From IMG/VR virus record IMGVR_UViG_3300006735_000221, positions 1 through 25,367 of that record: a stretch of DNA of 25,367 nt; one strand, 5' to 3'. The notes beneath the pieces were generated by a model. It made no database searches. It had not been told where the DNA came from and saw only the letters and a program-made list of their open reading frames with translations. Positions 3,217-25,367 of the stretch are shown piece after piece (within the stretch, counting starts at the first letter, position 1; each line of letters starts with the position of its first letter). This stretch comes from a virus. The position numbers and the translations under genes are program-made.

Positions 3217-6200
3217 TTAAAATGCTTTTATTAGATATTTAGCACGATGGTATCTAGTAATTAGAGGTATCGTTTCTTGTGGTTTAGCCTCAACAGAGAC
3301 TGATATGGGTGTTGCTGATGATAATGTAAATGTGCCATCTGTAAATCTTATGTTTGTTTCATTAGCAGTAATAGTCTTACGAATCACATCTACTCCTGAA
3401 TCTGGACCACATGTTCCTGTGTTACTAGGTAAATATGCACTAATTGATGGTACAAATACTCTTTCAGTAACTTCACCATAAACAATACCAAATGATCCTA
3501 ATCCCCAAGTATCTTCACTAGCAGTGTCATTATCACCAGCTCCAGATGGTCTTGATTGAAGTATATACAAATATATTCCATTTTTTCTAGCTGGATGATT
3601 AGCATCAAAATTAACTTCACTGTTAAACCACTGACCATTTGTACCATCAGATGCCGTTGCTATTTGTTGTATATCTGTGTAGGCTTCACTTTCTACACTT
3701 GTACTAAACTTCAACTCCAAAGCTTCCTCTGGTGGTTGTCCACCATTACTACCTGTTCCTCTGATAATACTAAACACCAACTTATTTGCTGACGATAAAT
3801 CTAATGGTCCCATTTTTAACCATCTATTACCTGTACCATAGAATCTAAAATAATTATTTGTTGGATGACCAGCTGGTACAGTTGAATGATTTGCTAATGC
3901 AGGAAATGTACCTGTAGCAGGAGTAATCATTTTAATATCATCACTTGCAGAATGCCATATATCTGCTTTAACTCCTGTTGAACCAGTACCAGCATCAGAC
4001 CAATCTTCATTAGTGTTAGTAAATCCAGGAACTTCATACACCCGACCTGCTGGTGTTGTTGTACCAAGTATTCTTCTCCCACCTTCTTGTAATGGAAGTG
4101 CGGATGCACTAATCCATGAATTACCGCCATTTTCAGCAGCAACTGGAGCTCCACCTTGTCCAGCACCACCACCATTATTTCCTTTAGTAATACTAATAGC
4201 AGTGTCTATAGTACCAGGATCTCCAGAAATACTGAATTGTACAAAAGCACCTGCTCCACCAGCACCACCTGATTCTGCGGCAGAGTCTCCAGTATAATAT
4301 GCTCTGAATTTAACATATCCGTCTCCTTCTCCACCTTCACTTGGTTGACGTGATTCAAAATATGTTGTTGAAATAGCAGATCTTCCAGCACGTCCACCTA
4401 ATCCAGATCCTGTGTTTGAGTGACCTGCTCCACCTTCTCCTCCTACACCACCATCACCAGATCCTCCTACTCCAAATCCACCGCCTCCACCGCCACCGCC
4501 TCCTGCGGTGCAACCTGTCTGTCCTCCAGCTCCACCCGCCTGAGATCCTGGTGAAATAGCAGGATTTTCATACAAACCTTGTGCTGGTCCTAATGCACTT
4601 CCACCAGTCCAACAAGCATCAACATAACTACCACCATTCCAACCACCACCTGATCCACCAGCTCCACCGCCGCCACCAGCTCCCATTATCCAAGCATTGT
4701 TATCAGCATTTTTAATACCAGTTGAACCACCACCAGCACCACCCGATGCACCATTTCCCCAATATCCATATCCACCTGATCCACCATTAGTAACACCAGT
4801 ACCACCAGCAGTGTTTGCTTCTCCTACAGAATTGCCAGCACTTCCTGGAACTCCTGCACCATTTTCATTACGTCCGTCTTGTCCAGCAGTTCCTATTACC
4901 CATGAGAAATTACTTACGAATGTATAACTACTACTAACATTATATGTACCACCTTGTTTTCCACTTATACCAAATACTTGTCTACCTCTACCACGATCAC
5001 CACCTAGTCCACTCTGACCACCAGAATCAACTACACCTGGCACTGGTTTCTGTATCCTATTAGCATTTGTTCCTGGTGGTGCTGATGCTGCTGGATATGT
5101 AGGACAAAGACCTGCTCCTGCTTGTTTTGAACCATCACCACCAGCACCACCAACGGCTGTTACTTCAATATAATCAAGAGTTGCGGCAGATGGCATTCTG
5201 GAATCATTACGTGCATTCCATGATCCATTAGTAGTCATTACACCTGTTGCAGGATAATCCATAAAACCTGAAGCTGGATTGGTACTGTAAGAACCATTTC
5301 CACCTTTACCAGCAAGAGGTTCATTTAAACCATTTCCACCAGAACCACCAACAGGTTGACTATTATCTAAAGCTCCACCACTTGCTCCTGCGTTTCCTGT
5401 TGCATTTGTACTAAAATTTACACGATCATCATTTAACAATGCACCAGGATTACCATCAGTAGAGGTAATAGTAACTGTACCTCCAGCTCCACCAGTTCCT
5501 CCACTGGTCCCCTTCTGTCCTCCTTTACCCCCTTCAAGTGTTACAGTATACTGAACAGAAGATCCATTAACATCTAAACTAAAAGTAACACTACTATTAC
5601 CACCATCAACACCATCATAATTAGATGATGCTCCACCACCACCTTGTGCTCTCATTGAAAAAACATATATTGCAACATCTTGATTATCAGAAGCAGATGC
5701 TGATTTAGTGAAGAGAGAGTCAGAGTTGCCCATTTCTACTTCCCATAAGGCATCTCCATACTGATCAGGATCAGTAGAATATATTGGTTTGTTACCTATT
5801 GTAGTTGGCAAAGAATCAACTGACCAAACAGCAGGATCTGGTGTAGTGGTAACATTCTCATAATAACCTGCTGCTTGCCTTAACGTAACATCACCACCAG
5901 GAGTAGTACCAGAAGCAGGAGCTCCATCAACAGGAGTGTATTTTATTGTATTATTATTAAACCCTGCTGTTATTACTTCATGCTCTCCATTATATTTCGC
6001 TGCTTCACCAACTGTACCAGAACCTCTAACCTTAACCCAATCACCAATACTTAATCCATGATCATCAGTAGTAATTACTGTAACATTAGTACCATCACTA
6101 GTCATACTGGTGATACCTATAGTAGCTGGTTCTGTTATTCTATACTTACTACACCCACTAGGGACTTGCTTAACTTCTATCTCACTACCACCACTGAGTG

Positions 6201-8943
6201 TAAGCTTAAGATCATATAAACGAACAGATCCATCACCAGTACCACTAAGAGGATTACCACTAGTTACAAAATACAAGTTATTAAGAGTGATGGCAGTGCT
6301 ATTATCATACAAGGTAAGATCTTTTCTTGTACCATTTGAATTAGATCCATCTGATAGATTTCCTGTATTATATCCAAACTTACCTTCACCATCATATCCA
6401 ATAACAATTTTGATAACCTGACCAATAGGAACACCAAAAGTTAACATACTCCATTTCTGATCAGCAACAGTCATATCACAATAATTTCCAGATGCACCAT
6501 CAAAAGCATTTTGTACTGGATAATATGCATCTTGTGCTGGTGTAGGTTCACCATTTTGATCAGAATATGTTGGTGCATTAGGATTGTTAAAATCATCCTC
6601 TAATGTTCCACCAGAATATTCTTGAACCTTATCACCAATACCTACACTGTTACCATAAGTTGCCATTGCAGAACTAGCTGGTCTAGTATCCATTAAACCA
6701 TGAGAGTGTCCTAAAGCACTACCATCAGTCGTATCTGGCTCAAAGTCCATTACACGACCTTTTATATTTCTGTAACTGGTAGTAAATGAATCAACACCAC
6801 CAATATTATCTTCAGTAGCATCATCAGCAACACTATGCAATAATTGATGTGAATGTTCTGAAGTTCTATTAAAAGTATAGTCCTGAATTGGACCAACAAC
6901 AAATTCTTTCTCTCCAGTCAAATATGGTTGTATCAAAGTATTAACATCACTATAACCAGTAGTTACAACATCACTAATTTCAAAGAACTCACCTGCATCA
7001 TCAATAATATCTTTTGATATTGTCCATTTACCACCAACATTACCAACCTCAATAGATGATCTTCCTTCAACCAATGGTGTTCCACTACCACTAACACCTT
7101 CACCCATACCAATAATCTTTCTATCTCTATAATCTGGTACTTTAAATTTTCCTAATATTTGAGGGAAATCAGATTGAACATATGCTTTTCTTATTCTGAC
7201 CAACGGATGTCCTGTTACTGTACCAGCAGTATTAGTATATGCTGGTAAAGATGTCCAATCAATATTCCATATTGCACCAGGATTAACTCCACTATTAGAA
7301 CCCTCTACTACTAAGTTATTAATAAAATGTGGAGAGTCTTGTAATGGTTCGTTCTCACCGTCAATAAATCTAAAGTCACCATCAATTCTGATAGCAGAGA
7401 ATCCTGCATCACCAGCAGCATTAGAATAATTCTCAAATTCTATCTTATAGATATTACCTTGGTTCATTGAACCATCACTATTCTCACTAACCTCATGTAT
7501 AGTTGTCCATCCAGTACCATGATTTACCCAAGGTTTTGCAGAAGAAGGACTAGTACTAGACCATACTCTTGATCTAGTGTTGCCATTTCCACTAGGATCA
7601 TATATTTCTAACTTAAAATTATATTGTACGTTTTCTGGTGGAGTAAATGTTAAACCACCAGCACCAACAGATCTCGTTGAAGTTAACTTCTCTTCAAATC
7701 CATTTGTTGCACCTGTTACTGCACCAGCAGATGTAAGAGCATCGCTCCAATCACGTGTAACACCTTCTCTAACATTAATAAGTGGTCCAGAACCAGCAGT
7801 AAAATCTAAATTCTCAATTAGTTCTTGACCATTGGTTAAATGACATATAACATTAAATCTATAAGTTACCTTTGTGTTTGTTTCTGGTTGTGGTCCACTA
7901 TATCCATTATCTCGTATCCAAGTAGCAATATTACCGACTCCTGGACGTGGCAGTGGAGCTCTATCAACAGTGTTCTTTACAAAAGAAGCACCAGTTGGTA
8001 ATATTTGATTTCCATTAAATGATGTAGTAGCAGCAGGTATACCAGTCACATGCCATAATATTTCATTAGGAGTACACATGTCTTGCAAGTATATCTCCCA
8101 AAAATCTATAGTAACATCCGTAGGTAATCCCTGCATTCCACCCCAAGAAAGTTGTGGACTCCAATTTAAAGCATTGGTATATTGTGTAGCACCAGTTGGT
8201 TGTTGAACACCACCAGTAGGATCATACTCTGGAATAGTACCATAATAAGATTCAGGAAGTACAGGAAGTGGATCAGAACCTTGAATTAATGTACTAGATG
8301 TAATATTCCAAATAATATCAGCAGTCTCAGTTGATGCTCCAACCATAAATTTATGAACTGAAACATTTGGATCAGTTGCTTTATCCTGATAATCAGAAGC
8401 ATACTCTAAAACTACATCAGTGTCTTCTTCAAAGATTGGATCACCATTAGCATCAGTACCAGCAGGAAAATCTCCTAACCCACCAACAAATGATATCTCT
8501 GCTTTATTTGGTACAACACGTGTTGAAAATACATTATTATTAATAGTTTCTACTTTATTCTTTATCTCACAAAATAAATCACCATCATCAACAAATGTCC
8601 TACGTATTGATCCAGGTTGAATACTAGATGAAAAAAGAATAGAATTATTATTAGTCGGATTAGTTAAACTATCAGGTTCAGTTGAATCATTGTAATCATT
8701 TCTTATTTTTTCATATAATGATGGATATAGACTTATATCATATTCCTCTCCATCACAATATAAAAACCCTCGTTGACAATAATGAGAATTTTGAATAACA
8801 TTATTAGGTGGTGCAGTATATCCCGATTCAGTTGAATTTGTAGTATGTTTATTAGCAAGCACAGGAACAATTGCTCCTATAGCAACATAAGATCCTTGCT
8901 TGTCTGTGTAAAAATTCTGATATGTATTTCTATATGATGCCAT
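3217..8943 (-). CDS. Giant collar-domain tail fibre/adhesin with PEBP-like and glycine-rich parts (1,908 aa)
   Basis: This is a multidomain fibre or adhesin. Residues about 17-80 carry the first half of a phage tail collar domain (GAIVPVL, then GFLYCDGEEYDISLYPSLY). The second half (KFKVPDYRDRKIIGMG) appears only at about 593-608, so roughly 500 residues are inserted between the halves. The insertion includes a PEBP/YbhB-like segment (258-382). HxH motifs typical of collar fibres follow at about 694 (EHSH) and 744 (GHSH). Near 958-972 is an HGLSIGDWVKVRG module of the FCCH-like beta type. Residues about 1095-1605 are extremely glycine-rich. A jelly-roll-like stretch (WLKMGPLDLSSANKLVFSI) follows, then a C-terminus YLIKAF like its neighbours. 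The start overlaps the upstream stop by 1 nt (TGATG). It probably forms the receptor-contacting tip of a fibre; that role is inferred. Confidence 0.85.
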   Translation of the reverse strand: MASYRNTYQNFYTDKQGSYVAIGAIVPVLANKHTTNSTESGYTAPPNNVIQNSHYCQRGFLYCDGEEYDISLYPSLYEKIRNDYNDSTEPDSLTNPTNNNSILFSSSIQPGSIRRTFVDDGDLFCEIKNKVETINNNVFSTRVVPNKAEISFVGGLGDFPAGTDANGDPIFEEDTDVVLEYASDYQDKATDPNVSVHKFMVGASTETADIIWNITSSTLIQGSDPLPVLPESYYGTIPEYDPTGGVQQPTGATQYTNALNWSPQLSWGGMQGLPTDVTIDFWEIYLQDMCTPNEILWHVTGIPAATTSFNGNQILPTGASFVKNTVDRAPLPRPGVGNIATWIRDNGYSGPQPETNTKVTYRFNVICHLTNGQELIENLDFTAGSGPLINVREGVTRDWSDALTSAGAVTGATNGFEEKLTSTRSVGAGGLTFTPPENVQYNFKLEIYDPSGNGNTRSRVWSSTSPSSAKPWVNHGTGWTTIHEVSENSDGSMNQGNIYKIEFENYSNAAGDAGFSAIRIDGDFRFIDGENEPLQDSPHFINNLVVEGSNSGVNPGAIWNIDWTSLPAYTNTAGTVTGHPLVRIRKAYVQSDFPQILGKFKVPDYRDRKIIGMGEGVSGSGTPLVEGRSSIEVGNVGGKWTISKDIIDDAGEFFEISDVVTTGYSDVNTLIQPYLTGEKEFVVGPIQDYTFNRTSEHSHQLLHSVADDATEDNIGGVDSFTTSYRNIKGRVMDFEPDTTDGSALGHSHGLMDTRPASSAMATYGNSVGIGDKVQEYSGGTLEDDFNNPNAPTYSDQNGEPTPAQDAYYPVQNAFDGASGNYCDMTVADQKWSMLTFGVPIGQVIKIVIGYDGEGKFGYNTGNLSDGSNSNGTRKDLTLYDNSTAITLNNLYFVTSGNPLSGTGDGSVRLYDLKLTLSGGSEIEVKQVPSGCSKYRITEPATIGITSMTSDGTNVTVITTDDHGLSIGDWVKVRGSGTVGEAAKYNGEHEVITAGFNNNTIKYTPVDGAPASGTTPGGDVTLRQAAGYYENVTTTPDPAVWSVDSLPTTIGNKPIYSTDPDQYGDALWEVEMGNSDSLFTKSASASDNQDVAIYVFSMRAQGGGGASSNYDGVDGGNSSVTFSLDVNGSSVQYTVTLEGGKGGQKGTSGGTGGAGGTVTITSTDGNPGALLNDDRVNFSTNATGNAGASGGALDNSQPVGGSGGNGLNEPLAGKGGNGSYSTNPASGFMDYPATGVMTTNGSWNARNDSRMPSAATLDYIEVTAVGGAGGDGSKQAGAGLCPTYPAASAPPGTNANRIQKPVPGVVDSGGQSGLGGDRGRGRQVFGISGKQGGTYNVSSSYTFVSNFSWVIGTAGQDGRNENGAGVPGSAGNSVGEANTAGGTGVTNGGSGGYGYWGNGASGGAGGGSTGIKNADNNAWIMGAGGGGGAGGSGGGWNGGSYVDACWTGGSALGPAQGLYENPAISPGSQAGGAGGQTGCTAGGGGGGGGGFGVGGSGDGGVGGEGGAGHSNTGSGLGGRAGRSAISTTYFESRQPSEGGEGDGYVKFRAYYTGDSAAESGGAGGAGAFVQFSISGDPGTIDTAISITKGNNGGGAGQGGAPVAAENGGNSWISASALPLQEGGRRILGTTTPAGRVYEVPGFTNTNEDWSDAGTGSTGVKADIWHSASDDIKMITPATGTFPALANHSTVPAGHPTNNYFRFYGTGNRWLKMGPLDLSSANKLVFSIIRGTGSNGGQPPEEALELKFSTSVESEAYTDIQQIATASDGTNGQWFNSEVNFDANHPARKNGIYLYILQSRPSGAGDNDTASEDTWGLGSFGIVYGEVTERVFVPSISAYLPSNTGTCGPDSGVDVIRKTITANETNIRFTDGTFTLSSATPISVSVEAKPQETIPLITRYHRAKYLIKAF
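4130..5655 (-). repeat. Glycine-rich low-complexity region of the 1,908-aa fibre
   Basis: This encodes about 500 residues dominated by G with A, S, N and T, including runs such as GGGGGGGGGF and many GGAGG or GGSGG units. It reads as CCACC/TCCACC-rich DNA on the plus strand. Glycine-rich motifs of this kind form the polyglycine-II sandwich in gp38-type adhesins of T-even phages; here the region is far longer. It is a likely hot spot for replication slippage and domain exchange. Confidence 0.85.
7798..8172 (-). other. PEBP/YbhB-like segment inside the 1,908-aa fibre
   Basis: Residues about 258-382 carry three landmarks of the phosphatidylethanolamine-binding protein family in the right order: SPQLSW at 262-267 (family SPxLxW), LWHVTGIP at 296-303 (family HWxxxNIP), and GYSGPQP at 347-353 followed by TYRFNV at 360-365 (family GYxGPxPPxxxHRYxF). 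Some usual ligand-site residues differ (for example HRY becomes TYR), so binding activity cannot be assumed. A carbohydrate- or lipid-binding receptor module is a plausible reading. Confidence 0.6.
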
Positions 8944-11854: not shown

Positions 11855-14800
11855 TTAAACCTCCTTGAGCCACCAACCACTAAATCCACCACCAACAGTA
11901 TTTCCTAGTGAATCAACACCACCAAGATAAATTAATGTTAATCCAGCATGAGGTGTCTGAACAATCATTTCACCAGATTGATATGGTGTAGATCCAGCCA
12001 ATCCTAATGTAGTACCACTAGAATCTCCCTGAACTTTAGTTCCAGTTCCTTGTGCTCTGATAACAAGTGATGTGTTATATGTTAGATTACCTCCAACATC
12101 AACTATACTTACAGTATCACCACTGATAGGATTATCTGGTAGATAAACAACAAAAGTATCTCCTACTGATACATTAGCAAAGTATTGAACGTTCGCTGTT
12201 AAATATTTATCACTATCATCAGCACCAGTTGCAATATACCTTGCATGGCGACCACCAGTTTTAGTATAGAAGTTCTCAATGCCAAATGAATCAATTGACA
12301 TATCATGGTTAATGTTGTATGTATTACCACCATTAACACCAAGTCTATTAATACTAAACTTAGCAGAATTAGTAGGAAGTTCAGAAACAGTACCAAGAAC
12401 TGTTAATGTATGACCAACAGTTACATTAGATTGTCCATCAACCTTAAATGATTCCTCACAAGTACCCTGAATAGTTTCAGGACATGATAGTGGATATATT
12501 GTAACATTACCTCTACCAATAACACCTGCTTCAAAGCTTATACTACCAGCATGATCTGCATGATAGTCATCATTTCCTACAGATAGTATTGTACTACTAT
12601 CAACAGAGTCAGTGATAGAGAAACCACCACCAAGTACCTTAAGATCTTTATTGATCTGTAGTGTACCAGTATCATCATTACCAAGAGTTCCTCTAGAACG
12701 GAAATCATCCATATTGACTTGATGATTTGTTCCTAACATTATGTCAGGTACAATAAAGTACTGATCATCTACTGGATTTGTATCACTACTATCTGTAATC
12801 CTGATCAGTTGCATGAAGTCCATCTTAGTCTGGACAATCTGACCTTGCTCAATGATAAGAGATACGTAATCAGTTGTCGCACCACTTATGGTTCTATCTC
12901 TTAAGGCAATATCAACTACATCAGAAGTCTTCTTATATTTCTTAAATCTAATTACATGAGTACCATTAATATCACTAAGATCACTTCCTGGTTGATAATC
13001 AGTCAGAGCTCTAGCAGTAGTTCCTTCTTGTGCAGGAATACATCTAAGAACCTTCTGAGCAATATCTATAGCTTCAATTCTCATGAATTCCCACTTAGGT
13101 GTAGCAGGTGTTCCAGCAGGAGCCTGCCATGAAGTATCAGATGAACCTAAAGAGTTGATAAGACCCTTGTTACCAACAAAGACTAACTCACCTACTGCAT
13201 ATGCTCCCTCATTTACTCCTAAAGCAGAAACAGTTAAGTATACAGATCCAGGAACAGTTCCTGTTGCTGCAACTGCTGTTAAGTAGTTACAACATCCATT
13301 AGTATCCAACCAAAGAGGATCCATCCAATAAGAATAGACTCTTAGATTTTCTACAATACTATCATAAGTATTAACAGTATCTGAAGCAGATTCTGGTTGT
13401 GGTGTAATTCTCTCAATTTCTATTCTTTTTCTCTTGCTACCAATTTCAAGAATACCTGTACATGTATCAAGATTGAAAGCATTCTTTCCATTACCATCAG
13501 TAATCTGGAATGTCTCATTTCTTATTGCCCTAAATCCTACACCAGTAGCATTTGCTTGGAAAGCAATATTATCACTTAAATTAATACTAGTATCATCAAT
13601 AGAGATAATCTTAGTACCTGCAATTACAGAGACAGGATGATCTTCTTGAGTTTCATTGAGTTTAATAATATCTCCAACTTGGAGTTTGGCAATATCAGCA
13701 GCAGCAATGTTATGAATAGCAAATGCATTGGTAGATATAAGAGATCCAGTAAATACCTCTCTACCATTACTATCAAACTCTCTCTTAGTACTTTCACATC
13801 CACCATTGATAGAGATAGAGTTTTCAATGGTAAGTTTACCACCGATATAAGTATCACCATTTGTGGAGTTAACTTCAAACCATGTGGTATCTGTAGGATC
13901 ACCACAATCAGAAATCTTAAACTTCTGATCTACCTTATTACCTAGAACATCAACCTTAATAACCTCACCGTATGATGGGTTAGATGGATCACGACCAATA
14001 ATGACATAATCATCTGTTGTTAGATTTCCACCAAACTCTGCAAGGTCCACATTATCTTGTGGTCCCGAATTATCCAAACGTGTCTCAGTCCATGTAGAAT
14101 CAAACTGAACATTACACTTGAATATAGGAGTAAGATCTGGATGGTTTGTATTTACAGCAGTAAATGTACCAAGTGGTTGACGCTTAACCTTAAGATAGAA
14201 TGGTGAACTAACTACACTTGTTAACTCAACAATCTGAACTATTTCAGGATGTCTTAATGGAGAAGCATTTATACCACTATTGATAATGATATAATCATTC
14301 TCTGCAAAGTATCCATTTGGATCAGCATCTCTGATTGGTAGATAGTATTCATCACCAGTTAGAGCTGGTAGATTTGGAGTTACGTTAGTTCTAGCATTCT
14401 GATACTCAGTACCACCCCAAGGATCTGTACCTTCAGTGTTAACCTCATTGTAATCAGAATCACTGCTAGGTTTAACAAGAACATTTACTATATCAATATT
14501 CTTGTTAGGCTCAGTATCAGAATATGGATTCTCAATACCAGTCTTCCAGAAGTCATTACCACCATTTGATGATGATGGTAGCACAGATCCCAACTGTGCT
14601 CTATTACCAGTAAATTCAAATGATGTTGTACCACCACATAACCATATATCAGAATGGAACTTAGCAGAAGCAATAACCTCAAGTTGGTTATTGATCGTAG
14701 TTGTACCACCCTGACCAGCAATATTAACTTCAGATGCATTAGTAGCAAAGTTAATTACTGATGGACCACCAGAGTTAGAGAAGAAACTAATAGTCTGTGA

Positions 14801-17800
14801 TTGACTGGATAGACTGGTTACATCACCGAATCCTCTTCTAAATCCTAACCAAGCATCACCATCAATCTTGAGTGATTTAGTCTCAATCTGAGTATACGAT
14901 AGAGACTCATTACTTGCGAAAGCACCACCAACAACAACCTTAGAAACATTAGTTCCTGAACCATCAGCAGTAGTACCAAGACTTATATTACTATCAGCAG
15001 ATAATACACCAGCAGTAATAATCTGTTTGGAAACCTGTGCATCACCAATGCTTATCTTCTGAGCAGATCCAGCAAGTGCTAATCCACCAGTTGCAGCAGT
15101 AGAACTAACTAATCCTGTGAATGTAGTATCCATGAATACATTCAACAGTCCAGTTGTCTTAGTAGTTGTTATACTACCAGTACCATCAACAGCTCCACCA
15201 TTGATAGCGACATCCTTCTGGAATATAGCATTGTCAGTAACTTCAGCAGTTCCAGTGACAGTTAAGGCACTATCCATATCTGCTAGAGTTGTATTAATAC
15301 CAACCCTACCACTGTTTGTAGTAGAAACTCTAAATGTTGCAGCATTTTGAGGAGTTACACTGTCGCCACCAACCATAAAGGCATGTGCCTCGGCAGTTTC
15401 TGTTCTAGTACTATATGCTGTGTTACCAAGGAAATCACCAATAGTCTTACCACTAATCCATGCAGTACCAACAACATCTAAGTTAGCACGTGGGTCAGTA
15501 GCAAGGGAAACAAATGCATTAGCATAATCACCATGAGCAGCACGTGCAACAGTGTTAATACCAACCTTGTAATCACCAATATCTTGAGTAGCAGTTCTTA
15601 TTGATTCAGATCCAACAACTCCAAACTCTTTCCATGTAGAGTTAGAATACATCATTGATACAGTAGAATCTGCTTGATACTCAGTATCCCAAAGTCTTGG
15701 ATTATCTCCACTTACATCTGCTTTTACTGTAAGTATAGTAAATTTAACTGTTGATTCAGTGCTATTGAACCCATTAGGATTAACAAACCATGTACCATTA
15801 AATGCAGTATCACTATAATTAGAGATTTGAATCTGAGAACCAGCTGTTATACCAATGTCATCATTTGTAATTTGAATTGAAGCACCAGTATTTGCATCAG
15901 TTGTAGTACCCCACTGAATAGTAATACTCGTAGTACCATCAAATGCAAAATGCTGAATATTATTATTAGGAATTTCAGCAAAGAAGTTAGCATTTATCCA
16001 TCCAAGAGATCCAGAGTAACCTACCTCAAATCCTTTGAGTAACATGTCACCAGCTTTTGGAGCTCCAGCATTACCATACTGAACATTCTGTGTCGCACTA
16101 ATAGAAGTACCACCAGTACCTTGTGCATTCCATACATCAGTTTGATTTGGTGTAATATTAGATCCAAGTCCAGCAACAGCATGGTTTTGAATCTTATATC
16201 CTTGAGCAGCACCATTAGAACCACGAGGATTAAACTGGAATACTGACGCAGAAATTTTATTTCTAGCAAGTACTATATCACCACCAGTTTCTGTGTTAAG
16301 TGTCTGAGCACCTCTAGAAAGAAGGGCATCATCCTTATCAGCAGCATTGGTACTAATGAATGATGATATACTTAAAGCATCCTTTCTAACTCTACCAAGA
16401 ACATTAATCTTAACAGGAGAGTTGAATGTATTATCCTCATCGTTTGCATCACCACCATTAACAGTAATGTATCTGTTAAATGTTACAGGAGTATCAAACG
16501 TAGTAACTAGACTTCCAATTGCATCTTCAGAATCTTCTGAATCTTGAAGTGATGCTCTTTCTAGGAATACTTCCTCACCAGTGATAGCATCAATCTTACG
16601 GTTACCAATGTATAGATCACCATTAGAGTTAAGACCAGTGTAGAATACTAAACCACCATCTTGCTTCTTAGACTGTGCATAGAAGTCTTGAGTAGGAGTA
16701 AGTAATACTTCCTGTCTTGCAGGTAGACCAGTTGAGTAGTTACCTGGACCAAAACCAAGGTATTCAAACGTATGGTTACCAGCACGAGCAATAGATGGTC
16801 GTCTAAGTTCAACATACAATCTATAACCAGATAGAACTGTATTGTCACCAGAGATAGGAATTAATCTATCTTCAGAACCAGATGAAGCATTACCTTTCTT
16901 TGCTATAATTCTATTATCAACTTGTGATGATACTTGAGTATAAGTATTATGCTTTAAAGATTCTGTAGCAATAATATCACTAACAGTTTCCTTAGTCATT
17001 GATCCCTTGAAGTCATTAACTCTTACAAGACCATGAACATAGTTATCAGCAGCAGAATATGTTGCAGGTGGATCAACAAGAGTTGCATCTAAATTCTTAT
17101 ACCAGAGAGGATCATTCTTATAGTTAAGAGGATATAACTTACTGATCGGTTGAGAGAACTTAAAGTTTCTAAAGTTACCTAAATTACCAGCACCAGTTGG
17201 GTATGGTGAAACATTACCACGAACAGCAGTTAGATAGTAAATACCATCTTGCTGACCATAGATACGTTTCTGAATCTCTTGTGTGTTAAAGATATAGAAT
17301 GTATCATCTAATTCACCAACATCAGTTACAGACTCAACATAATATGTGACGTTAGCATCATCCTTAATTTCATCACCAGGTGTTATAGTATATACTTTTG
17401 CACCTTTTTGCTTGTAATAATACTGGGGTAAATTTTTTCCAATTAGATCTTTTGTATCTAATGATTTACCGAAGTTTGGATCAGATTCCAAATCACAGAA
17501 TACAGTACCCTGAGACAATCTAATATTATCAGTCTCTGAATATATTAGTTTAGCAGTTGGAGTACTATTATCAATTGTAATATCTTTAAGAATTAAATGC
17601 CATGTAGTAGTATTAGGAATTTGAAGTGCAGCATGTAAATACGCACTTCCTTTTGCTGGTTGATTACCTTCGTTAAATCCTTCCCACTCTATCTTATTAG
17701 AAGCAGTAGATTGAGATTTATCTACTGTAAACCCACCATTAGGTCCACTACCACCTTGAGGTGCAGAAACCTTAACAGTTGTTAGAGTTTCATTTAATAG

Positions 17801-20800
17801 AGCATTATTAGTAATACCTTGATCAAATACTGTTACCTCTAGATATTCATCAGTAGTTGCTTTATTAAAATACTTAGCAGATTGAATTGACATAGAAACA
17901 AAGTTTTCTGTCTCTATCTTCTTAACAAACTGTGTATTTCCAACAAGATCTCTCTTATAAGGATCATACTGTGCATCTCTATTAAGATTTAGATTAACAT
18001 CTGCAAATTCAGTCTCAGTAAATCCAATCTTTTCATTTGTTTGTACTGGGTTGTAGAATATTGCTGATGATTGTCCTGTCTTAGGTTTCAATACTAACTT
18101 TTGTGGTAAAAGTTTTCTTGTATCATCCTTACGTACCTTAATACTAAATCCATTAAGAGGATCACGAACTGTGCTTAAGTACTGAGGAATAACATAACGT
18201 AAACGATATATACGATCATCTGCATTTCTATCATCCTTAATTCTTTCATACCAAGAATCATTTGTCTTATCCTGACCTGAAGCATCATTATATGCTACAT
18301 CATGGAATCTTGCTAATATTTCTTTAGAGTTAGCTGGAGCTCCATTTGAATTAGGTTCTACATTCAAATACCACTTACCATATATTATTGGTGTAGTATC
18401 TGGATTTGGATATGATGGATCAAATCTCATTGGAGATTGACGCTTATCTGCAAATACAGAGAAGTCATATGTTCCTGTCTGGAAATCAATTTCATTTATA
18501 TTTGCAATCGCATCAGTCTTTGTAGCATGAATAGTGAATACTTTCTCGTTCTGATAACGTGCAAAGAATAACTTATCAGTTCTTATTCTACCACCAGCAT
18601 CAGCAAAGTTTTGATTACCCTGATAGTTCTGTCCTAGTATAGGTACATTTCCACCTTCATTTGCTCTAAAGAATACTTCATGTGCTATGGTATTAGAAGT
18701 TGTAACATCAAATATATGTGGAACGCTTGTTCTAATACCAGCATTGATATCTCCATCAAGTTTGCACTCATACTGGTGTAGGTCATACTTATCATCAAGA
18801 ACAAATTGATAGACATCAATCTCAATATCTGGATGAATTGCTTCTACTTCAGCAGAGTGAATGTATATACCAGCAGCAGCATTCTCTTTGCTGTTTGCTA
18901 ACATAAAGTATACTCCAGAAGATGAAGTTCCATTGAAGTTAGTTACACTACTATAATTCTCTGGTTTTGTATTTCTACCAGGAGCAATTATATAATATTT
19001 CTCGTTAGTATCAAATCCATTAGGTAATCTTACATTACGCTTATCAACATCAACATAAGAATTTGTATTAGTATCGTATCTTGGACGTGGTACAAGACGT
19101 ACAGCAGTACCTGTCTCTAAGTTATGAGGATTTGTTCCTGCAATCTTCCACAATGTAGATCTAGAAGATAGTGAAGCTGTTGTTGTAGTTGGTTGAGTTC
19201 TAGGAACTGCACCTAAACCAGTTTGAATGATTGTACTAATATTAGCAAAGTACTGACGTACAGTAGTTGCTTGAGTATTACACTGAGGATATCCTGTATC
19301 CTGTGTGATACTATCATCAACCTTAGGTGTAAACTGTGATGTATAAACTCCAGTTGGTAATGTGAAGTATAGATATGAATTTGTAGTTGATGAGTTAGCA
19401 TTAACAGAAGGACCAAAAGCAATACCAAGCTCAGGTGTAACTCTGTCAAGATTACTTAAATATCCAGGATTATTAATAGTCTGAGTAATAACACCATACA
19501 AAGTAGTAATTGTGGATGCTACATTCTGACAAGAACCATTAGAAATAGTTCTCATAATACTGTCAAGAGAAGTACCATCTAATACAGTAGAAGTAACAAT
19601 ACCAAATAAAGTATCAATACTTGATCTTACATCATGACACTTACCATCAGATCTAGTTCTTGCTACAGAAGATAAAGAAGAAGGATCTGTGATAGAATTA
19701 ATAACAATAGTAACTAATGTATTAAGAATAGATTCAGCATTAGCACATCTAAAGGTAGCAGCAGTACGAACAACAGAGTATAATGAAGATGGTGAAACAA
19801 TCGCATTTGTAAGAATCTGTATCAAAGATGTAACAGTTGCTAGAGCATCATCACAATCACCATTAGCAACACCATTAGTAATTGTTCTAGTTACTTGAGC
19901 AATTCCAGTATGTCCACCAATAGTAACTGCTTCATTAATAATTACTTGTCTGATAATGTCACGTGCTGCATTAAATGCAAATATAGTTTCATTTTCAGAT
20001 CCAACAGCATGAGCACCAGCATTATACATCAACGCTGCATCCCATACACGATCATTACCACCATAAGCTAGGTTGTGTGATATAACATCTACAACATCCT
20101 TAAGATCATCAAGACAATCAGTTTCAGTATAAGGAGCAGTCCATGTATAAGCTGGATACTGAGCCTTCATCCTTCCTAACGCAATTTCTGCAATGAAATT
20201 TTTATTATCATCAATTAGATCACGAGCATCAGCAACTTTATTATCAAGTGGTGTCACTGGATCTTGTGTAATAGGATCATTGGAAGTAGTGTAATCCTGT
20301 GTTAGACCATGAGAACCAATAACAAGAATCTTTTCCTTTCTCATTGCTTGGATCATCAACTCTTTAGCATCTGTAAATGCCATGAGTGTCTGTTCTTCTT
20401 CGCCAGCAACATGAGCACCTGTGACATATAAATTTGCCATGTCCCAAGTTCTATCATTACCACCATACCCTAAATTATAGCTAACCTCAATAACAAAGTC
20501 TTTAATATCATCAATACAATCTTGTGGGTTTCCAGTTGGAGGTAAGAAATTAGGATTCTGAAGAAGCATTCTTGCATAAGCTTCCTCTGCAATCAAATTA
20601 ATATTAGATTGAATTAAATTATATGCATCAGCATTAGCGTCAACTGGGAATACATCATCAGTATCAACTGTAATAGTAGTGTCATATACCTGTGTTAAAC
20701 CATGTGATCCTATAGGTAAAATCTTTTGATTTCTAGTTACCTGAACTGCCATCTCTTTGGCATAGTTAAAGACTACATTAGTCTCTGCTTCTTCACCAGC

Positions 20801-23800
20801 AACGTGAGCTCCTGTCTTATAAGAATAAGCAGCATCCCATGTCTTATCGTTACCACCAAATGCTACGTTATCTGCAATTGCTTCCAATAGATCGTTGACA
20901 TCATCAATACAATCTTGATTGTGATATGATTGATTGCCAGCAACAGAGAATACTTTATGCACTCCATTAGTTTTAGATTCAACCCAAGTATGAGTATACT
21001 GACCACCACTAGTTACAGCACCAACTGCTGTTCCACCAGTCCATTCATGTGTATACTGTTGTCCAGCAGCAGCAATACCAACATTAACAGTAATTGATCC
21101 ACCTTGCTTCTCAATACCACTAGCAGCAGCTCTCTTAAATGTATGAGCAGATTGAGGAAGATGCTTAATGCCATCAGTTACACTACTGTCCCATGTATGT
21201 GGAGACTGTGGCTCATACTCAATAGCATCAGCAAGAGTATCTAATGCCACAAATGTATGTGCATATTGATTATTAGCATCAGAATCATAACCTACATTGA
21301 ATGTAATAGTTCCATCTTGATGTGCAATTCCATCAGGAGTAGCATCTTGATATTCATGTACAGAAGTATCTTGAGAAATACCTACATTAACTTCAAATGC
21401 ATTGGTTACAACATTAGATATTTTTAACCAACGTCCACTTGCAGAATCATATCCTGTACGTGGATATGTCTTTGGTTGCACTTTACCATCAAGTTCACAC
21501 TTGAATGTAAATGAATTATCAGCAATCTTGATGTAATCACCATTCTGATATCCATGACCAGCAACTGAAATTAACAATGCTCCAGTAGAAGGATTGTAAG
21601 AAGCACCAGTTGCTGTCTTGGTTGTTGAACCAACTGCTGTTACACTGATTGATTTACCAGCAAAAGGATCAGTTCCAGGACGAGGATACTTAGTAACTGC
21701 TGTGTTACCATCTCTATCACATGTGAAAGCTAATGAGTTATCTTTAAGAGTAATATCAGAACCAACTGCAAGACCATGTTGTCCTATTGTTGCAGTAAAT
21801 ACACCAGTAGCAGCATCATAAGTTGCTGCTGTTGGAGTGAATGTCTTATTATCTCCAGCATTACCAACATTAACTGTAACAGTTGTTGATCCTATGGCAG
21901 TAATTGGAATAGATCTTCCAGAAGCTCTATCTTTACCTGCACGTGGATATGCTTGAGCAACTTGGTTGCCATCCATTGTACACTTAAATGATACAGCACC
22001 ATTTTCAATAAGTAATCCTTCACCAACTGAAAGTCCATGTCCAGATCCAACTTCCAATACCAAATCACCACTAGCAGGATCATATGTGGTAGCAGATCCA
22101 GCAGTGAATGACTGGTTAGCACCTGCTGCTCCAACATTAACTGTAAACTTATCTCCATTTAAAATAGAAACTTCCAACCACTTATCACTAGAAGGATCAC
22201 TTAATCTTGGATAAGGATGCTCTGTAGCATTATTATCAAACGAACATGTGAAGGTCAAAGACCCCTCGGAAATTTTTATGGAATCGCCGTTAGTAAAGCC
22301 GTGATTTGGTGAAGTTATTTCAAGAATACCAGTTGCAGGATCATAATCAGCATCAGTTGCTGTCTTATATGATGATCCAACATCTTTAACTTTTAAAGAA
22401 TTATGCCAAGCAAAGTCTTTCTTCTTAGTAATACCACCTGGAGCAGCACCCGAATACTGATGAACAGTAGTATTTGTAGGTGTTACACCTCTTAAGATAT
22501 CAATATCAAATGTATTTGTTGTTATGTTATATGGATTCAACCACTGACCACTTGCAGGATCACTTGGTCTTGGATAAGGATGATCTGACTGAAGATTGTC
22601 TTGCTGACATTTGAATATCAATGCACCATCAGCGAGCTTAATTTGATCTCCATCAACCAAACCATGACCAGTAATAGTTACAGTAACAATACCTGTGTTT
22701 GGATTATAATCAGCACCAGTTGCATCAGAAAGAGTTACTATATCTGTCCTAGGATATGAGTGGACAGATCCATAAGAGTCCTGAGCACACTTGAAGGTCA
22801 ATGATCCATCTGCTATCTTAATAGCATCACCATTAGATAGATCGTGACCATCAATACTCAATACTAGATCACCAGTAGCAGGATCATAAGTTGCAGTACT
22901 GACATCGTGTGATTTAGAAGCTGTCTTACCAACATCAAGAGTTATATCATTTCCACTAACAGAAGCAATTGGAAGTAATGCACCACCAGCAGGGTCACTT
23001 GCACGAGGATATACGTGCTCACTAGCATTCTCATCCATATCACATGTAAATGTTAATGCACCGTAGTCAAGTCTAACAGCATCAACTTCTCTCTTAATTC
23101 CACCACCAACAGCAGTTACATAACTATGAACATAGTCACCACCAGTGATTACAGCATCATCAAGAGCACTTACAAATGTATGAACATCTACGTTAGTAGA
23201 AGGTTGAGATGATAGAACCTGTAATGTAATTGTAGTTGTAGTTACAGACTCAATATTAATTGCTTTATCATAAAATGGGTCTGAAGCTCTAGGATATGAT
23301 TTCTCAGCAGCAGTACCAGTAGCACCACCAAATCCACAACTAAACTTCAATGACTCTGCAAGAAGTTTAATACTTGTACCAGCACTCAATCCGTGATTAC
23401 CAATCGTCAAGGTCATCAAACCTGTTGTTGGATTGTAATCAGCAGCAGTAGGAGTAAACTTAACTAAAGGTGACTTACCTACATGAACATCAAATTGATC
23501 TCCCTGCTTATTAGAAATCTTTAACCACTTACCACTAACAGGATCAGAAGCTCTTGGATATTGCTTATTACCAGTATCCATTGAACAAGTCATTGTCAAT
23601 GAATCATCTTCAATCTTTATCTTATCACCATTAACAAATGTATTACCAGTAACTGTAAGCGTCAAGACTCCAGTTGTGGCATTATATTGAGCATCAGAAG
23701 CAGTATGAGAAGTTGCTCCAGTTAAACCAGTAGTACTAGGTAAAGTAAGAACTAACTGACCAGTAGTAGGAGTATAAACTGCATTAGTAGGAGTATATTG

Positions 23801-25367
23801 TGCTGTTGATGATTGCAACAACATTCTCTCAACTGACTCAGCAGAGATTAACTGTTTGTTAGCAAGAATTAAAGCACGTGCATCACCAGCTCTATCATTA
23901 ACTGCGTCTGGTGTCTTGTATGTAATTGAAGTATCTTTAGTCTGTGTTAAACCATGTGAACCGAAGATGAATACATCCTCATTACGCATAGCTTGGATAG
24001 ACATATCCCTAGCGTATTCAATAGCACGAATAGTCTCTTCTTTCTTCTGATCAATATATTGAACTGCACCACTCTCATAATGATAAGCAGCATCCCATAC
24101 ATCAGCATTACCACCATAACCTGTGTTCTCAGCAATTGCCTCAACAATATCAACTAAGTCATCTCTACAATCTTGTGGACCGTATCCTGTTGGTGAAGTA
24201 TAGGATGGGAAATCCAATACCATTCTATCAAATGCTTCAGCAGCAATGAATAATTTATTTGATTCTAATAGATTTCTAGCATCTCCATGACGATCAGAGA
24301 ATACTTTCTTCTCAGATGAAGTTGCCTTCTGACCTAACTCAATAGTAGCAGAGTCAACAACACGTTTAACAAATGTATTGTCTGGGATAACAGGAGTAGT
24401 AGGTCTTGTAGCACCACCAATCAACTTATTGTCAGAAGTAAACTGTGAAGGATCATAGTCAGCAACTGTCATACCTTGTACAACACCACTAGTATCACCT
24501 ATATTGACTAATGATTCACCACTAGTTGTTTCTGTACCTGTACGAAGATAAGTGAAGTTACGTGTTGCAGCGATAGCAAGATCTCTAGCATAATCATAAC
24601 CTTCTAGAGTTTCATTTAATTCTCCTGTAATGTAAGATAGTTGACTAGCAACAAAATATGATTCAGCAGCTTGAATAGTATTGATGTTTCCACCAAGTCT
24701 TAAATCTTGTACAGTAGCATCAATTAAATATCCAATGTCTCTACGACATTTCTCAATTGTGATTCCTTCTTTAATTAATAGATTAGGATACTTACCAGTA
24801 ATATAACCATATGCTTCATAAGCAATAAATTCTTTATTATCCTCAATTCTATCAGCAGCGTCTAAATCTTTATTATCAACTGATATACCACTTGGGTTAA
24901 GAACATCAGCAGTGACAGTAAATTTTGAAAATCCAGTTGGAGATAGTGTAGCATTAAATACGTTATCTGATCCTACAGTTCTTGGTGTAAGCTTTACATA
25001 TACTTTCTCGTCAGACCTAGAACCAATACGATAACCATCTATAGTTGCAGCAGGTCTTGCTTTAGGATCATATCCTAAATCATCACCTAAGAACAACTTA
25101 GTATCGTTTGCTTGATCATTTGATGCCTGTACATCTAATGTATAATAAGAAACTTTCTTTGTATTACCAGTAGTTTCAGGTACAATCTGAGGTGGAACAA
25201 TGTCAGTAATATATCCACCCTTGTCTTGGTTAAAGGAGAAACCTTTATGACCGATAGCATGTAGTGATGTATTACCAAAGTTACTGTTAGAGTTGGTGAT
25301 ACTCATATCACCACCACTTTCCATTAGGAAGTGATCAGCAAAACCAACAGCGAAGATACTAACACAC
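11855..25367 (-). CDS. Giant structural/tail fibre protein, 5' partial (at least 4,503 aa)
   Basis: The frame is open to the right edge: before the first visible Met (25324) it reads VSIFAVGFADHFL without a stop, so the true start lies outside. Counted from that Met, the N-terminus (SITNSNSNFGNTSLHAIG, GGYITDIVPP) resembles cyanophage giant structural proteins. Residues about 151-1810 hold five helical GGN/WDAA modules, with a nine-copy beta-module block (505-1460) inside the third. Four 36-residue Cys-led helical repeats follow (1820-1963). Then comes a long beta-rich part, two VGINT...V-G-T-A fibre repeats (about 3255-3360), and a C-terminal domain ending GWWLKEV. No membrane segment or protease motif was seen. 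It is probably a very long virion fibre or baseplate-attached adhesin; the virion position is inferred. It leads the operon. Confidence 0.85.
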   Translation of the reverse strand, partial: CVSIFAVGFADHFLMESGGDMSITNSNSNFGNTSLHAIGHKGFSFNQDKGGYITDIVPPQIVPETTGNTKKVSYYTLDVQASNDQANDTKLFLGDDLGYDPKARPAATIDGYRIGSRSDEKVYVKLTPRTVGSDNVFNATLSPTGFSKFTVTADVLNPSGISVDNKDLDAADRIEDNKEFIAYEAYGYITGKYPNLLIKEGITIEKCRRDIGYLIDATVQDLRLGGNINTIQAAESYFVASQLSYITGELNETLEGYDYARDLAIAATRNFTYLRTGTETTSGESLVNIGDTSGVVQGMTVADYDPSQFTSDNKLIGGATRPTTPVIPDNTFVKRVVDSATIELGQKATSSEKKVFSDRHGDARNLLESNKLFIAAEAFDRMVLDFPSYTSPTGYGPQDCRDDLVDIVEAIAENTGYGGNADVWDAAYHYESGAVQYIDQKKEETIRAIEYARDMSIQAMRNEDVFIFGSHGLTQTKDTSITYKTPDAVNDRAGDARALILANKQLISAESVERMLLQSSTAQYTPTNAVYTPTTGQLVLTLPSTTGLTGATSHTASDAQYNATTGVLTLTVTGNTFVNGDKIKIEDDSLTMTCSMDTGNKQYPRASDPVSGKWLKISNKQGDQFDVHVGKSPLVKFTPTAADYNPTTGLMTLTIGNHGLSAGTSIKLLAESLKFSCGFGGATGTAAEKSYPRASDPFYDKAINIESVTTTTITLQVLSSQPSTNVDVHTFVSALDDAVITGGDYVHSYVTAVGGGIKREVDAVRLDYGALTFTCDMDENASEHVYPRASDPAGGALLPIASVSGNDITLDVGKTASKSHDVSTATYDPATGDLVLSIDGHDLSNGDAIKIADGSLTFKCAQDSYGSVHSYPRTDIVTLSDATGADYNPNTGIVTVTITGHGLVDGDQIKLADGALIFKCQQDNLQSDHPYPRPSDPASGQWLNPYNITTNTFDIDILRGVTPTNTTVHQYSGAAPGGITKKKDFAWHNSLKVKDVGSSYKTATDADYDPATGILEITSPNHGFTNGDSIKISEGSLTFTCSFDNNATEHPYPRLSDPSSDKWLEVSILNGDKFTVNVGAAGANQSFTAGSATTYDPASGDLVLEVGSGHGLSVGEGLLIENGAVSFKCTMDGNQVAQAYPRAGKDRASGRSIPITAIGSTTVTVNVGNAGDNKTFTPTAATYDAATGVFTATIGQHGLAVGSDITLKDNSLAFTCDRDGNTAVTKYPRPGTDPFAGKSISVTAVGSTTKTATGASYNPSTGALLISVAGHGYQNGDYIKIADNSFTFKCELDGKVQPKTYPRTGYDSASGRWLKISNVVTNAFEVNVGISQDTSVHEYQDATPDGIAHQDGTITFNVGYDSDANNQYAHTFVALDTLADAIEYEPQSPHTWDSSVTDGIKHLPQSAHTFKRAAASGIEKQGGSITVNVGIAAAGQQYTHEWTGGTAVGAVTSGGQYTHTWVESKTNGVHKVFSVAGNQSYHNQDCIDDVNDLLEAIADNVAFGGNDKTWDAAYSYKTGAHVAGEEAETNVVFNYAKEMAVQVTRNQKILPIGSHGLTQVYDTTITVDTDDVFPVDANADAYNLIQSNINLIAEEAYARMLLQNPNFLPPTGNPQDCIDDIKDFVIEVSYNLGYGGNDRTWDMANLYVTGAHVAGEEEQTLMAFTDAKELMIQAMRKEKILVIGSHGLTQDYTTSNDPITQDPVTPLDNKVADARDLIDDNKNFIAEIALGRMKAQYPAYTWTAPYTETDCLDDLKDVVDVISHNLAYGGNDRVWDAALMYNAGAHAVGSENETIFAFNAARDIIRQVIINEAVTIGGHTGIAQVTRTITNGVANGDCDDALATVTSLIQILTNAIVSPSSLYSVVRTAATFRCANAESILNTLVTIVINSITDPSSLSSVARTRSDGKCHDVRSSIDTLFGIVTSTVLDGTSLDSIMRTISNGSCQNVASTITTLYGVITQTINNPGYLSNLDRVTPELGIAFGPSVNANSSTTNSYLYFTLPTGVYTSQFTPKVDDSITQDTGYPQCNTQATTVRQYFANISTIIQTGLGAVPRTQPTTTTASLSSRSTLWKIAGTNPHNLETGTAVRLVPRPRYDTNTNSYVDVDKRNVRLPNGFDTNEKYYIIAPGRNTKPENYSSVTNFNGTSSSGVYFMLANSKENAAAGIYIHSAEVEAIHPDIEIDVYQFVLDDKYDLHQYECKLDGDINAGIRTSVPHIFDVTTSNTIAHEVFFRANEGGNVPILGQNYQGNQNFADAGGRIRTDKLFFARYQNEKVFTIHATKTDAIANINEIDFQTGTYDFSVFADKRQSPMRFDPSYPNPDTTPIIYGKWYLNVEPNSNGAPANSKEILARFHDVAYNDASGQDKTNDSWYERIKDDRNADDRIYRLRYVIPQYLSTVRDPLNGFSIKVRKDDTRKLLPQKLVLKPKTGQSSAIFYNPVQTNEKIGFTETEFADVNLNLNRDAQYDPYKRDLVGNTQFVKKIETENFVSMSIQSAKYFNKATTDEYLEVTVFDQGITNNALLNETLTTVKVSAPQGGSGPNGGFTVDKSQSTASNKIEWEGFNEGNQPAKGSAYLHAALQIPNTTTWHLILKDITIDNSTPTAKLIYSETDNIRLSQGTVFCDLESDPNFGKSLDTKDLIGKNLPQYYYKQKGAKVYTITPGDEIKDDANVTYYVESVTDVGELDDTFYIFNTQEIQKRIYGQQDGIYYLTAVRGNVSPYPTGAGNLGNFRNFKFSQPISKLYPLNYKNDPLWYKNLDATLVDPPATYSAADNYVHGLVRVNDFKGSMTKETVSDIIATESLKHNTYTQVSSQVDNRIIAKKGNASSGSEDRLIPISGDNTVLSGYRLYVELRRPSIARAGNHTFEYLGFGPGNYSTGLPARQEVLLTPTQDFYAQSKKQDGGLVFYTGLNSNGDLYIGNRKIDAITGEEVFLERASLQDSEDSEDAIGSLVTTFDTPVTFNRYITVNGGDANDEDNTFNSPVKINVLGRVRKDALSISSFISTNAADKDDALLSRGAQTLNTETGGDIVLARNKISASVFQFNPRGSNGAAQGYKIQNHAVAGLGSNITPNQTDVWNAQGTGGTSISATQNVQYGNAGAPKAGDMLLKGFEVGYSGSLGWINANFFAEIPNNNIQHFAFDGTTSITIQWGTTTDANTGASIQITNDDIGITAGSQIQISNYSDTAFNGTWFVNPNGFNSTESTVKFTILTVKADVSGDNPRLWDTEYQADSTVSMMYSNSTWKEFGVVGSESIRTATQDIGDYKVGINTVARAAHGDYANAFVSLATDPRANLDVVGTAWISGKTIGDFLGNTAYSTRTETAEAHAFMVGGDSVTPQNAATFRVSTTNSGRVGINTTLADMDSALTVTGTAEVTDNAIFQKDVAINGGAVDGTGSITTTKTTGLLNVFMDTTFTGLVSSTAATGGLALAGSAQKISIGDAQVSKQIITAGVLSADSNISLGTTADGSGTNVSKVVVGGAFASNESLSYTQIETKSLKIDGDAWLGFRRGFGDVTSLSSQSQTISFFSNSGGPSVINFATNASEVNIAGQGGTTTINNQLEVIASAKFHSDIWLCGGTTSFEFTGNRAQLGSVLPSSSNGGNDFWKTGIENPYSDTEPNKNIDIVNVLVKPSSDSDYNEVNTEGTDPWGGTEYQNARTNVTPNLPALTGDEYYLPIRDADPNGYFAENDYIIINSGINASPLRHPEIVQIVELTSVVSSPFYLKVKRQPLGTFTAVNTNHPDLTPIFKCNVQFDSTWTETRLDNSGPQDNVDLAEFGGNLTTDDYVIIGRDPSNPSYGEVIKVDVLGNKVDQKFKISDCGDPTDTTWFEVNSTNGDTYIGGKLTIENSISINGGCESTKREFDSNGREVFTGSLISTNAFAIHNIAAADIAKLQVGDIIKLNETQEDHPVSVIAGTKIISIDDTSINLSDNIAFQANATGVGFRAIRNETFQITDGNGKNAFNLDTCTGILEIGSKRKRIEIERITPQPESASDTVNTYDSIVENLRVYSYWMDPLWLDTNGCCNYLTAVAATGTVPGSVYLTVSALGVNEGAYAVGELVFVGNKGLINSLGSSDTSWQAPAGTPATPKWEFMRIEAIDIAQKVLRCIPAQEGTTARALTDYQPGSDLSDINGTHVIRFKKYKKTSDVVDIALRDRTISGATTDYVSLIIEQGQIVQTKMDFMQLIRITDSSDTNPVDDQYFIVPDIMLGTNHQVNMDDFRSRGTLGNDDTGTLQINKDLKVLGGGFSITDSVDSSTILSVGNDDYHADHAGSISFEAGVIGRGNVTIYPLSCPETIQGTCEESFKVDGQSNVTVGHTLTVLGTVSELPTNSAKFSINRLGVNGGNTYNINHDMSIDSFGIENFYTKTGGRHARYIATGADDSDKYLTANVQYFANVSVGDTFVVYLPDNPISGDTVSIVDVGGNLTYNTSLVIRAQGTGTKVQGDSSGTTLGLAGSTPYQSGEMIVQTPHAGLTLIYLGGVDSLGNTVGGGFSGWWLKEV
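11860..11865 (-). promoter_or_regulatory. Strong ribosome binding site of the 502-aa fibre gene
   Basis: AGGAGG on the minus strand lies 8 nt before the ATG at 11851 and overlaps the last sense codons of the giant gene. It fixes this start and suggests that the 502-aa fibre is initiated independently as well as by coupling. Confidence 0.8.
15245..15560 (-). repeat. VGINT fibre repeats in the giant protein
   Basis: Two units show a VGINT motif followed by a spacer and an L-x-V-x-G-T-A strand (VGINTVARA...LDVVGTAWISG and VGINTTLAD...ALTVTGTAEVTDNA). This resembles the VGIGTxxPxxxLDVxG repeat common in phage long tail fibres and supports a fibre role for the C-terminal third. Confidence 0.6.
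19435..19865 (-). repeat. Four 36-residue Cys-led helical repeats
   Basis: Four tandem units begin (D/R/K/S)C and run through an amphipathic helix pair to P-x-S-L or T-S-L and then R-T. The starts read DCDDALATV, RCANAESIL, KCHDVRSSI and SCQNVASTI. The DNA period is about 107-110 nt. The single Cys at the same place in every unit suggests packing or metal ligation along a solenoid. Confidence 0.75.
19895..24870 (-). repeat. Five helical GGN/WDAA modules (one split)
   Basis: A module of about 120 residues recurs: an N-terminal helix (L-x-x-N-K-x-F-I-A-x-E-A), then C-x-x-D, then a G-Y-G-G-N loop, W-D-A-A-x-x-Y-x-x-G-A, and G-S-H-G-L-T-Q. Copies lie at about 24560-24870 (divergent), 23930-24300, 23810-23890 plus 20680-20930 (split), 20280-20650 and 19895-20245. 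I recognise this module style from marine phage structural proteins; its function is not established from sequence. Confidence 0.75.
20945..23810 (-). repeat. Nine-copy beta-module array
   Basis: Nine units share Y-(D/N)-P-x-T-G strands, H-G-L-x-x-G-D-x-I-K, S-L-x-F-x-C-x-x-D, and Y-P-R followed by D-P-x-S-G. The YPR codons lie near 21459, 21679, 21940, 22206, 22567, 22749, 23011, 23291 and 23557. One copy (near 23011) lacks its first half. Short H-T-F/H-T-W hairpin units are interspersed and cluster at the C-terminal end (20950-21270). The copies differ clearly at DNA level, so this is an old, diverged array. Confidence 0.8.

Follow-up and report, generated by a model that had tools for sequence, protein, structure and literature searches.

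The locus considered here raises the question of whether the collar of a phage tail fibre harbours a genuine member of the PEBP/YbhB family and, if so, what such a domain does on a virion. The PEBP fold is best known from proteins of cell signalling and flowering. The window, that is, the whole stretch of 25,367 nucleotides analysed, represents the tail-fibre portion of a genome fragment from a T4-like phage with relatives among marine cyanophages; among the records listed, the DNA shared with Synechococcus and Prochlorococcus phages amounts to one short stretch of 74–79% identity. Its genes follow the order short tail fibre (502 aa), collar protein (466 aa), large fibre and tail-fibre assembly chaperone, which is also the order in the isolate S-WAM2 and, with one added gene, in S-RSM4 (Kyanoviridae). 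The large fibre, P0001, in which the features discussed below are located (Table 1), occupies a gene position common to 34 PEBP-bearing contigs and these two isolates, in both of which its orthologue is annotated as a virion structural protein. Searches for psbA and psbD gave no match in 23 related contigs, which are fragments, so that this result is uninformative on the host. Elsewhere in the window (positions 11855–25324), a 4,489-aa open reading frame contains numerous imperfect repeats centred on a YPRxSDP motif.

Table 1. Features of the large fibre gene, in window positions and fibre residues.
Feature	Positions	Strand	Fibre residues	Basis
Tail-fibre/collar protein P0001, 1,908 aa	3217..8943	(-)		Open frame; conserved gene position
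Collar N-terminal half	8692..8778	(-)	56-84	Pfam in L002; motif conserved in family
First insertion domain, beta-rich, unnamed	8275..8691	(-)	85-223	Profile
PEBP-like domain	7777..8274	(-)	224-389	Pfam, PDB profile, HHalign, Foldseek
Pfam-matched PEBP core	7837-8166	(-)	260-369	
Second insertion domain	7300..7776	(-)	390-548	Only window's sub-clade
Collar C-terminal half LGKFKVPDYRDRKIIG	7024..7167	(-)	593-640	Conserved in all rows of alignment A5
Glycine-rich distal region	4108..5652	(-)	1098-1612	Composition, 29% Gly
Conserved C-terminal 115 residues ending TRYHRAKYLIKAF	3220..3564	(-)		Alignment A6

The original prediction started from four short motifs, SPQLSW, LWHVTGIP, GYSGPQP and TYRF, occurring in PEBP order between positions 7798 and 8172 of the window (fibre residues 258–382). 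All four are in frame, at residues 262–267, 296–303, 347–353 and 360–363, respectively, and their agreement with the family goes beyond chance, as judged by Pfam and by an HHalign score of 55.8 against a shuffled maximum of 24.0. The profile search proposed as a check likewise returned PEBP-specific matches, from Pfam, HHalign and a PDB profile. Against Pfam PBP (PF01161), for which the curated cut-off is 24 bits, the window segment scored 18.1 bits (E = 0.0036), below that cut-off, and the match was absent when the whole 1,908-aa protein was scanned with Pfam. Taken alone, the sequence of the window copy is therefore suggestive of a PEBP, and the assignment becomes firm once relatives are added. 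A homologue sharing 60% identity (L002) reached 32.5 bits (E = 1.3e-7), PBP was matched by 19 of the 19 members of the first domain alignment (A4), and six further segments scored 28.4–45.6 bits, all above the cut-off, with divergent members down to E = 1.2e-11. The Pfam matches end at profile position 100–107 of 135, leaving the C-terminal quarter of the model missing; this truncation alone is no ground to deny homology, and the C-terminal part of the phage domain differs. More members were gathered by DNA-pattern scans and by a scan of viral contigs for the fibre C-terminus. Candidates L009–L013 were set aside as spurious, being 77-aa frames whose similarity hardly extends beyond a KNDPTSFN stretch, as were four from the DNA-pattern scan (L027, L030, L032 and L034), where short frames had matched by chance.

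A profile of the phage domain, run against 177,635 PDB sequences, gave four matches at E ≤ 10, all of them PEBPs (YbcL at E = 0.0012, HP0218, Rv2140c and YbhB); with a broader profile, PEBPs made up five of the six matches at this threshold (YbcL, 2.0e-4; HP0218, 2.3e-4). The HHalign score quoted above was obtained against a four-sequence PEBP profile and corresponds to 95% probability, the 300 column shuffles used as a control having a mean of 13.0. By tblastn, the domains of the window, L002 and L022 gave no convincing match in the phage collection. A divergent member searched against 50,697 phage records (2.3 Gb) gave six weak matches at E ≤ 10 (best 0.04), all stand-alone YbhB/YbcL-type genes lying within the eight records that YbhB itself finds. 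The window domain is a true relative of PEBP/YbhB proteins.

Structure prediction, also suggested at the outset, yielded a model with the PEBP fold. The AlphaFold model comprises 642 residues and was built from 20 sequences; its pLDDT is mostly about 70–92 over the PEBP domain, with a poor loop around residues 321–340. When this model was compared with the PDB by Foldseek, ranks 1–7 were all PEBP chains, namely, YbcL, Rv2140c, YbhB (two entries), CT736 and HP0218 (two chains), with E-values from 9.9e-8 (YbcL) to 1.3e-4 and TM-scores (target) of 0.55–0.68. The domain is thus shown, at the level of a predicted fold, to be a PEBP/YbhB-family beta-sandwich that is shortened at its C-terminus. A viral fold library returned no named PEBP match for the long multi-domain query, with low TM-scores. 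Foldseek of the multi-domain model also gave CBM32/APC10-like folds, the query range of those matches not being shown.

The segment had further been placed inside an insertion that splits the collar domain, a location that sequence profiles, the predicted structure and another 33 members of the family uphold. The split collar sequence consists of RGFLYCDGEEYDISLYPSLY at residues 58–77 and LGKFKVPDYRDRKIIGMGEG at 597–616, the C-terminal half including FKVPDYRDRKIIG at about residues 600–612. Pfam Collar (PF07484) was matched in L002 at residues 56–89 (E = 2.8e-7), as well as in the S-WAM2 and S-RSM4 orthologues; the window collar falls below the Pfam threshold, yet aligns with the collars of all three. 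Only a couple of dozen residues lie between the collar halves of S-RSM4. The profile of the first insertion domain matched all PEBP-bearing fibres (34/34), the PEBP-less L087 (E = 1.3e-5) and, weakly, L091 and L093. L087 carries this domain without PEBP, and its frame runs straight into the second collar half; these three fibres represent a near-empty site for the PEBP insertion, clear in L087 and weak in the others. The second insertion domain, present in 8 of the 20 rows of alignment A5, matched no Pfam or PDB sequence family and carries WVNHGTGWT and YDPSGNGNTRSR motifs. Collars of this family form a graded series, from the bare collar to collars with domain 1, with domain 1 and PEBP, and finally with a third domain. 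Other variations were noticed along the fibre. In L059, L060, L063 and L069, about 115–140 extra residues split the first insertion domain ahead of the PEBP domain. Ahead of its second collar half, L002 has an insert of 62 residues of the GSGYAVGNIITVTGG type that the window does not have; in orthologues without PEBP, L095 and L099 for example, the collar is filled by similar glycine-rich stretches. At about 2,975 aa, the fibres of L025 and L033 exceed those of the other members by roughly 1,000 residues.

With regard to distribution, orthologues with and without PEBP were collected by means of the conserved C-terminal 115 residues. The domain is present in 34 of 52 dereplicated complete fibres and absent from the other 18, among them S-WAM2 and S-RSM4. 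On a tree built on the C-terminal 330 residues, with the insertion excluded, the 34 PEBP-plus fibres all fall in one clade of uncultured T4-like contigs, and the PEBP label needs one change; this branch, with a support of 84/92 and a presence in 86% of bootstrap trees, is only moderately supported, and the outgroup branches are long. In all 34 PEBP-plus contigs, the fibre lies next to the upstream collar gene, and in 33 of them next to the chaperone (not found in L023); PEBP-plus and PEBP-minus fibres are flanked by the same neighbours. Since the tree needs a single change, the flanking genes are the same and L087 has domain 1 without PEBP, these data fit a single gain of the PEBP domain. No annotated phage isolate of the searched collection was found to carry the fibre-borne domain. 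One match in a prokaryote genome set, on a 13-kb contig assigned to a Euryarchaeota MAG (L122, NZDA01000001.1), is a PEBP domain sharing 91% identity with the L052 domain; the contig is probably a mis-binned virus contig, which is the simplest reading.

The rate of evolution differs along the fibre. In 13 close pairs, the N-terminus has the highest mean identity (92.4%), followed by the C-terminus (89.8%), the second collar half together with the next 200 residues (87.1%), the PEBP domain (86.7%) and the distal region (82.2%), the distal part being the fastest-evolving one. In the same pairs, the median dN is 0.078 for PEBP versus 0.116 for the distal region; PEBP dS is mostly 0.2–0.35, a quantity that is uncertain for short segments, and dN/dS is about 0.3. 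According to these comparisons, purifying selection acts on the PEBP domain, whose sequence changes less rapidly than that of the distal fibre. The glycine-rich region contains runs such as CTAGGGGGGGGGFGVGG. Poly-glycine II receptor-binding domains are known in gp38 adhesins (PMC12892980), and the distal region of the window fibre recalls those of T2/S16 gp38, a likeness to be taken as a lead only.

Five charged residues, corresponding to D71, D73, H87, H118 and R119 of Arabidopsis FT, are near-invariant in PEBPs, and multiple replacements among them are described in only two groups (Tsoy and Mushegian, PMC8793217). Mapped via the HHalign alignment, these positions are occupied in the window by L286, D288, L296, V359 and T360, so that one of the five (D73) is kept. 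Over the 34 members, D73 is found in 20 (Asn in the 14 others), H87 in 12, H118 in 24, and D71 and R119 in none; L052, L054, L056, L079 and L085 are the five that keep D73, H87 and H118 together. GYxGPxP and the framework motifs are retained across the phage domains, with N260, W267, E283, W297, N312, G347, Y348, G350 and PQP invariant in 34/34. The newly conserved residues are E283, W297, N312, W342 and Q352, all invariant, and H298, present in 26 of the 34. Judged from its residues, the window domain is classed as a PEBP-fold homologue and not as a canonical ligand-binding PEBP, and binding of lipid or phosphate via the canonical pocket looks unlikely for this copy. Outside it, some pocket chemistry may remain, as most members keep H118 and an Asp or Asn at D73. 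A lipid head-group, nucleotide or phospho-glycan ligand had originally been envisaged; with L, D, L, V and T at the five positions, it is unsupported for the window copy, and inspection of the pocket, proposed as a further check, also speaks against it through the absence of D71 and R119 from all members.

The explanation that we favour, with a probability of roughly 0.6, is that a PEBP beta-sandwich was captured and put to new use on the fibre collar, as a structural or contact module, a function that we infer. The source would have been a PEBP of a cell or of a phage, and the domain would have entered one ancestral phage at the end of a collar insertion that was already there; what was then preserved would be the shape of the fold, with the charged ligand pocket left to decay. 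The resulting outward-facing module may stiffen or cap the collar, or make protein or glycan contacts via the newly conserved residues, primary host recognition more likely residing in the distal glycine-rich part. A more tentative proposal, to which we give about half as much weight, is that marine T4-like phages captured PEBP once from cells and that its pocket was replaced by E283, W297-H298, N312 and Q352, giving rise to a new host-surface binding module carried by the collar.

It is rather unlikely that the domain acts as a receptor-binding module through the PEBP pocket itself, binding with altered chemistry a host phospho-glycan, lipid A/LPS phosphate or another head group. PEBPs bind anions and nucleotides in the canonical pocket (PMC3338619), collar-type fibre insertions are plausible places for receptor binding, and the retention of H118 and D/N73 in many members, together with H87 in five, would be consistent with such a role, while H298, E283 and Q352 could make another site. 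However, D71 and R119 are missing throughout, the window keeps D73 alone, and the domain evolves more slowly than the distal fibre, unlike typical host-range determinants. The domain does not belong to the fast-evolving part of the fibre, and a role in receptor binding, as first suggested, is a possibility that might involve a new site. The loss of the canonical charged residues could also mean that the domain is what is left of a captured PEBP gene, without function and in decay, a very improbable reading for a domain that is kept in 34/34 fibres over deep divergence, with many invariant positions and the dN/dS given above. Ig/FN3-type beta-sandwiches are common in phage tails. That the domain is an unrelated sandwich of this type resembling PEBP only in short motifs, as a shallow model from two sequences (pLDDT 55; YbhB at rank 1, then many FN3 domains) and the superficially immunoglobulin-like aspect of PEBP (PMC8793217) might suggest, is strongly disfavoured by the profiles and by the deeper 20-sequence model with PEBPs at its first seven ranks, no Pfam FN3 family being matched in 19 members at E ≤ 0.1 and HHalign to human FN3-10 scoring 12.9, the shuffled level, versus 55.8 for PEBPs.

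The PEBP fold and fibres of this type are each known already; their combination was not found in the open-access literature searched, where no paper linked PEBP or Raf kinase inhibitor with a phage tail fibre or a cyanophage. For the YbhB homologues of bacteria and archaea, the charged pocket is regarded as the mark of a common function, and groups without it are few (PMC8793217); a clade of phage virions with the fold and without the pocket offers a natural test of what the pocket-less fold can do. The domain also provides a recognisable fibre module for uncultured ocean phages, and the graded, nested collar insertions show how fibres acquire domains.

Among known systems, the S-WAM2 and S-RSM4 fibres resemble the window fibre in gene neighbours, collar and C-terminus, but have no PEBP and a collar insert that is short or glycine-rich. 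T4 gp12 and other PF07484 proteins share with it the collar sequence and the position in the tail-fibre gene cluster; to our knowledge, gp12 has no PEBP domain. The collar domain of gp12 corresponds to residues 342–397 (PMC3004832), whereas the window fibre has its collar in the N-terminal part, with about 1,300 further residues behind it. Stand-alone phage PEBPs of PHROG 5139 belong to the same family (E = 0.0028 for the L002 domain by profile), but are encoded by small genes of their own in a few phage records and are not fibre parts. PHROG 5139 itself, of unknown function in PHROGs, is of the PEBP family (E = 4.3e-84 with YbhB and 3e-95 with YbcL). E. coli YbcL (1FUX), located in the cryptic prophage DLP12, and YbhB (1FJJ, 1VI3) match the phage domain in fold, with YbcL as the best Foldseek hit, and in the order and spacing of NxSPxLxW, W-xxxx-IP and GYxGxxPxxGExHxY. 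These two proteins stand alone and have a charged pocket of DPDAP and HRY, whereas in the phage domain D71 and R119 are missing and the last quarter of the Pfam model has no counterpart; bacterial and archaeal YbhB homologues in general are mostly stand-alone and infrequently fused (PMC8793217). The PEBP of mitochondrial ribosomal L35/L38, an animal and fungal ribosomal protein, is comparable, going by its published description, in that it likewise sits in a large assembly, with several of the five conserved polar residues replaced and, by necessity, a newly acquired function (PMC8793217).
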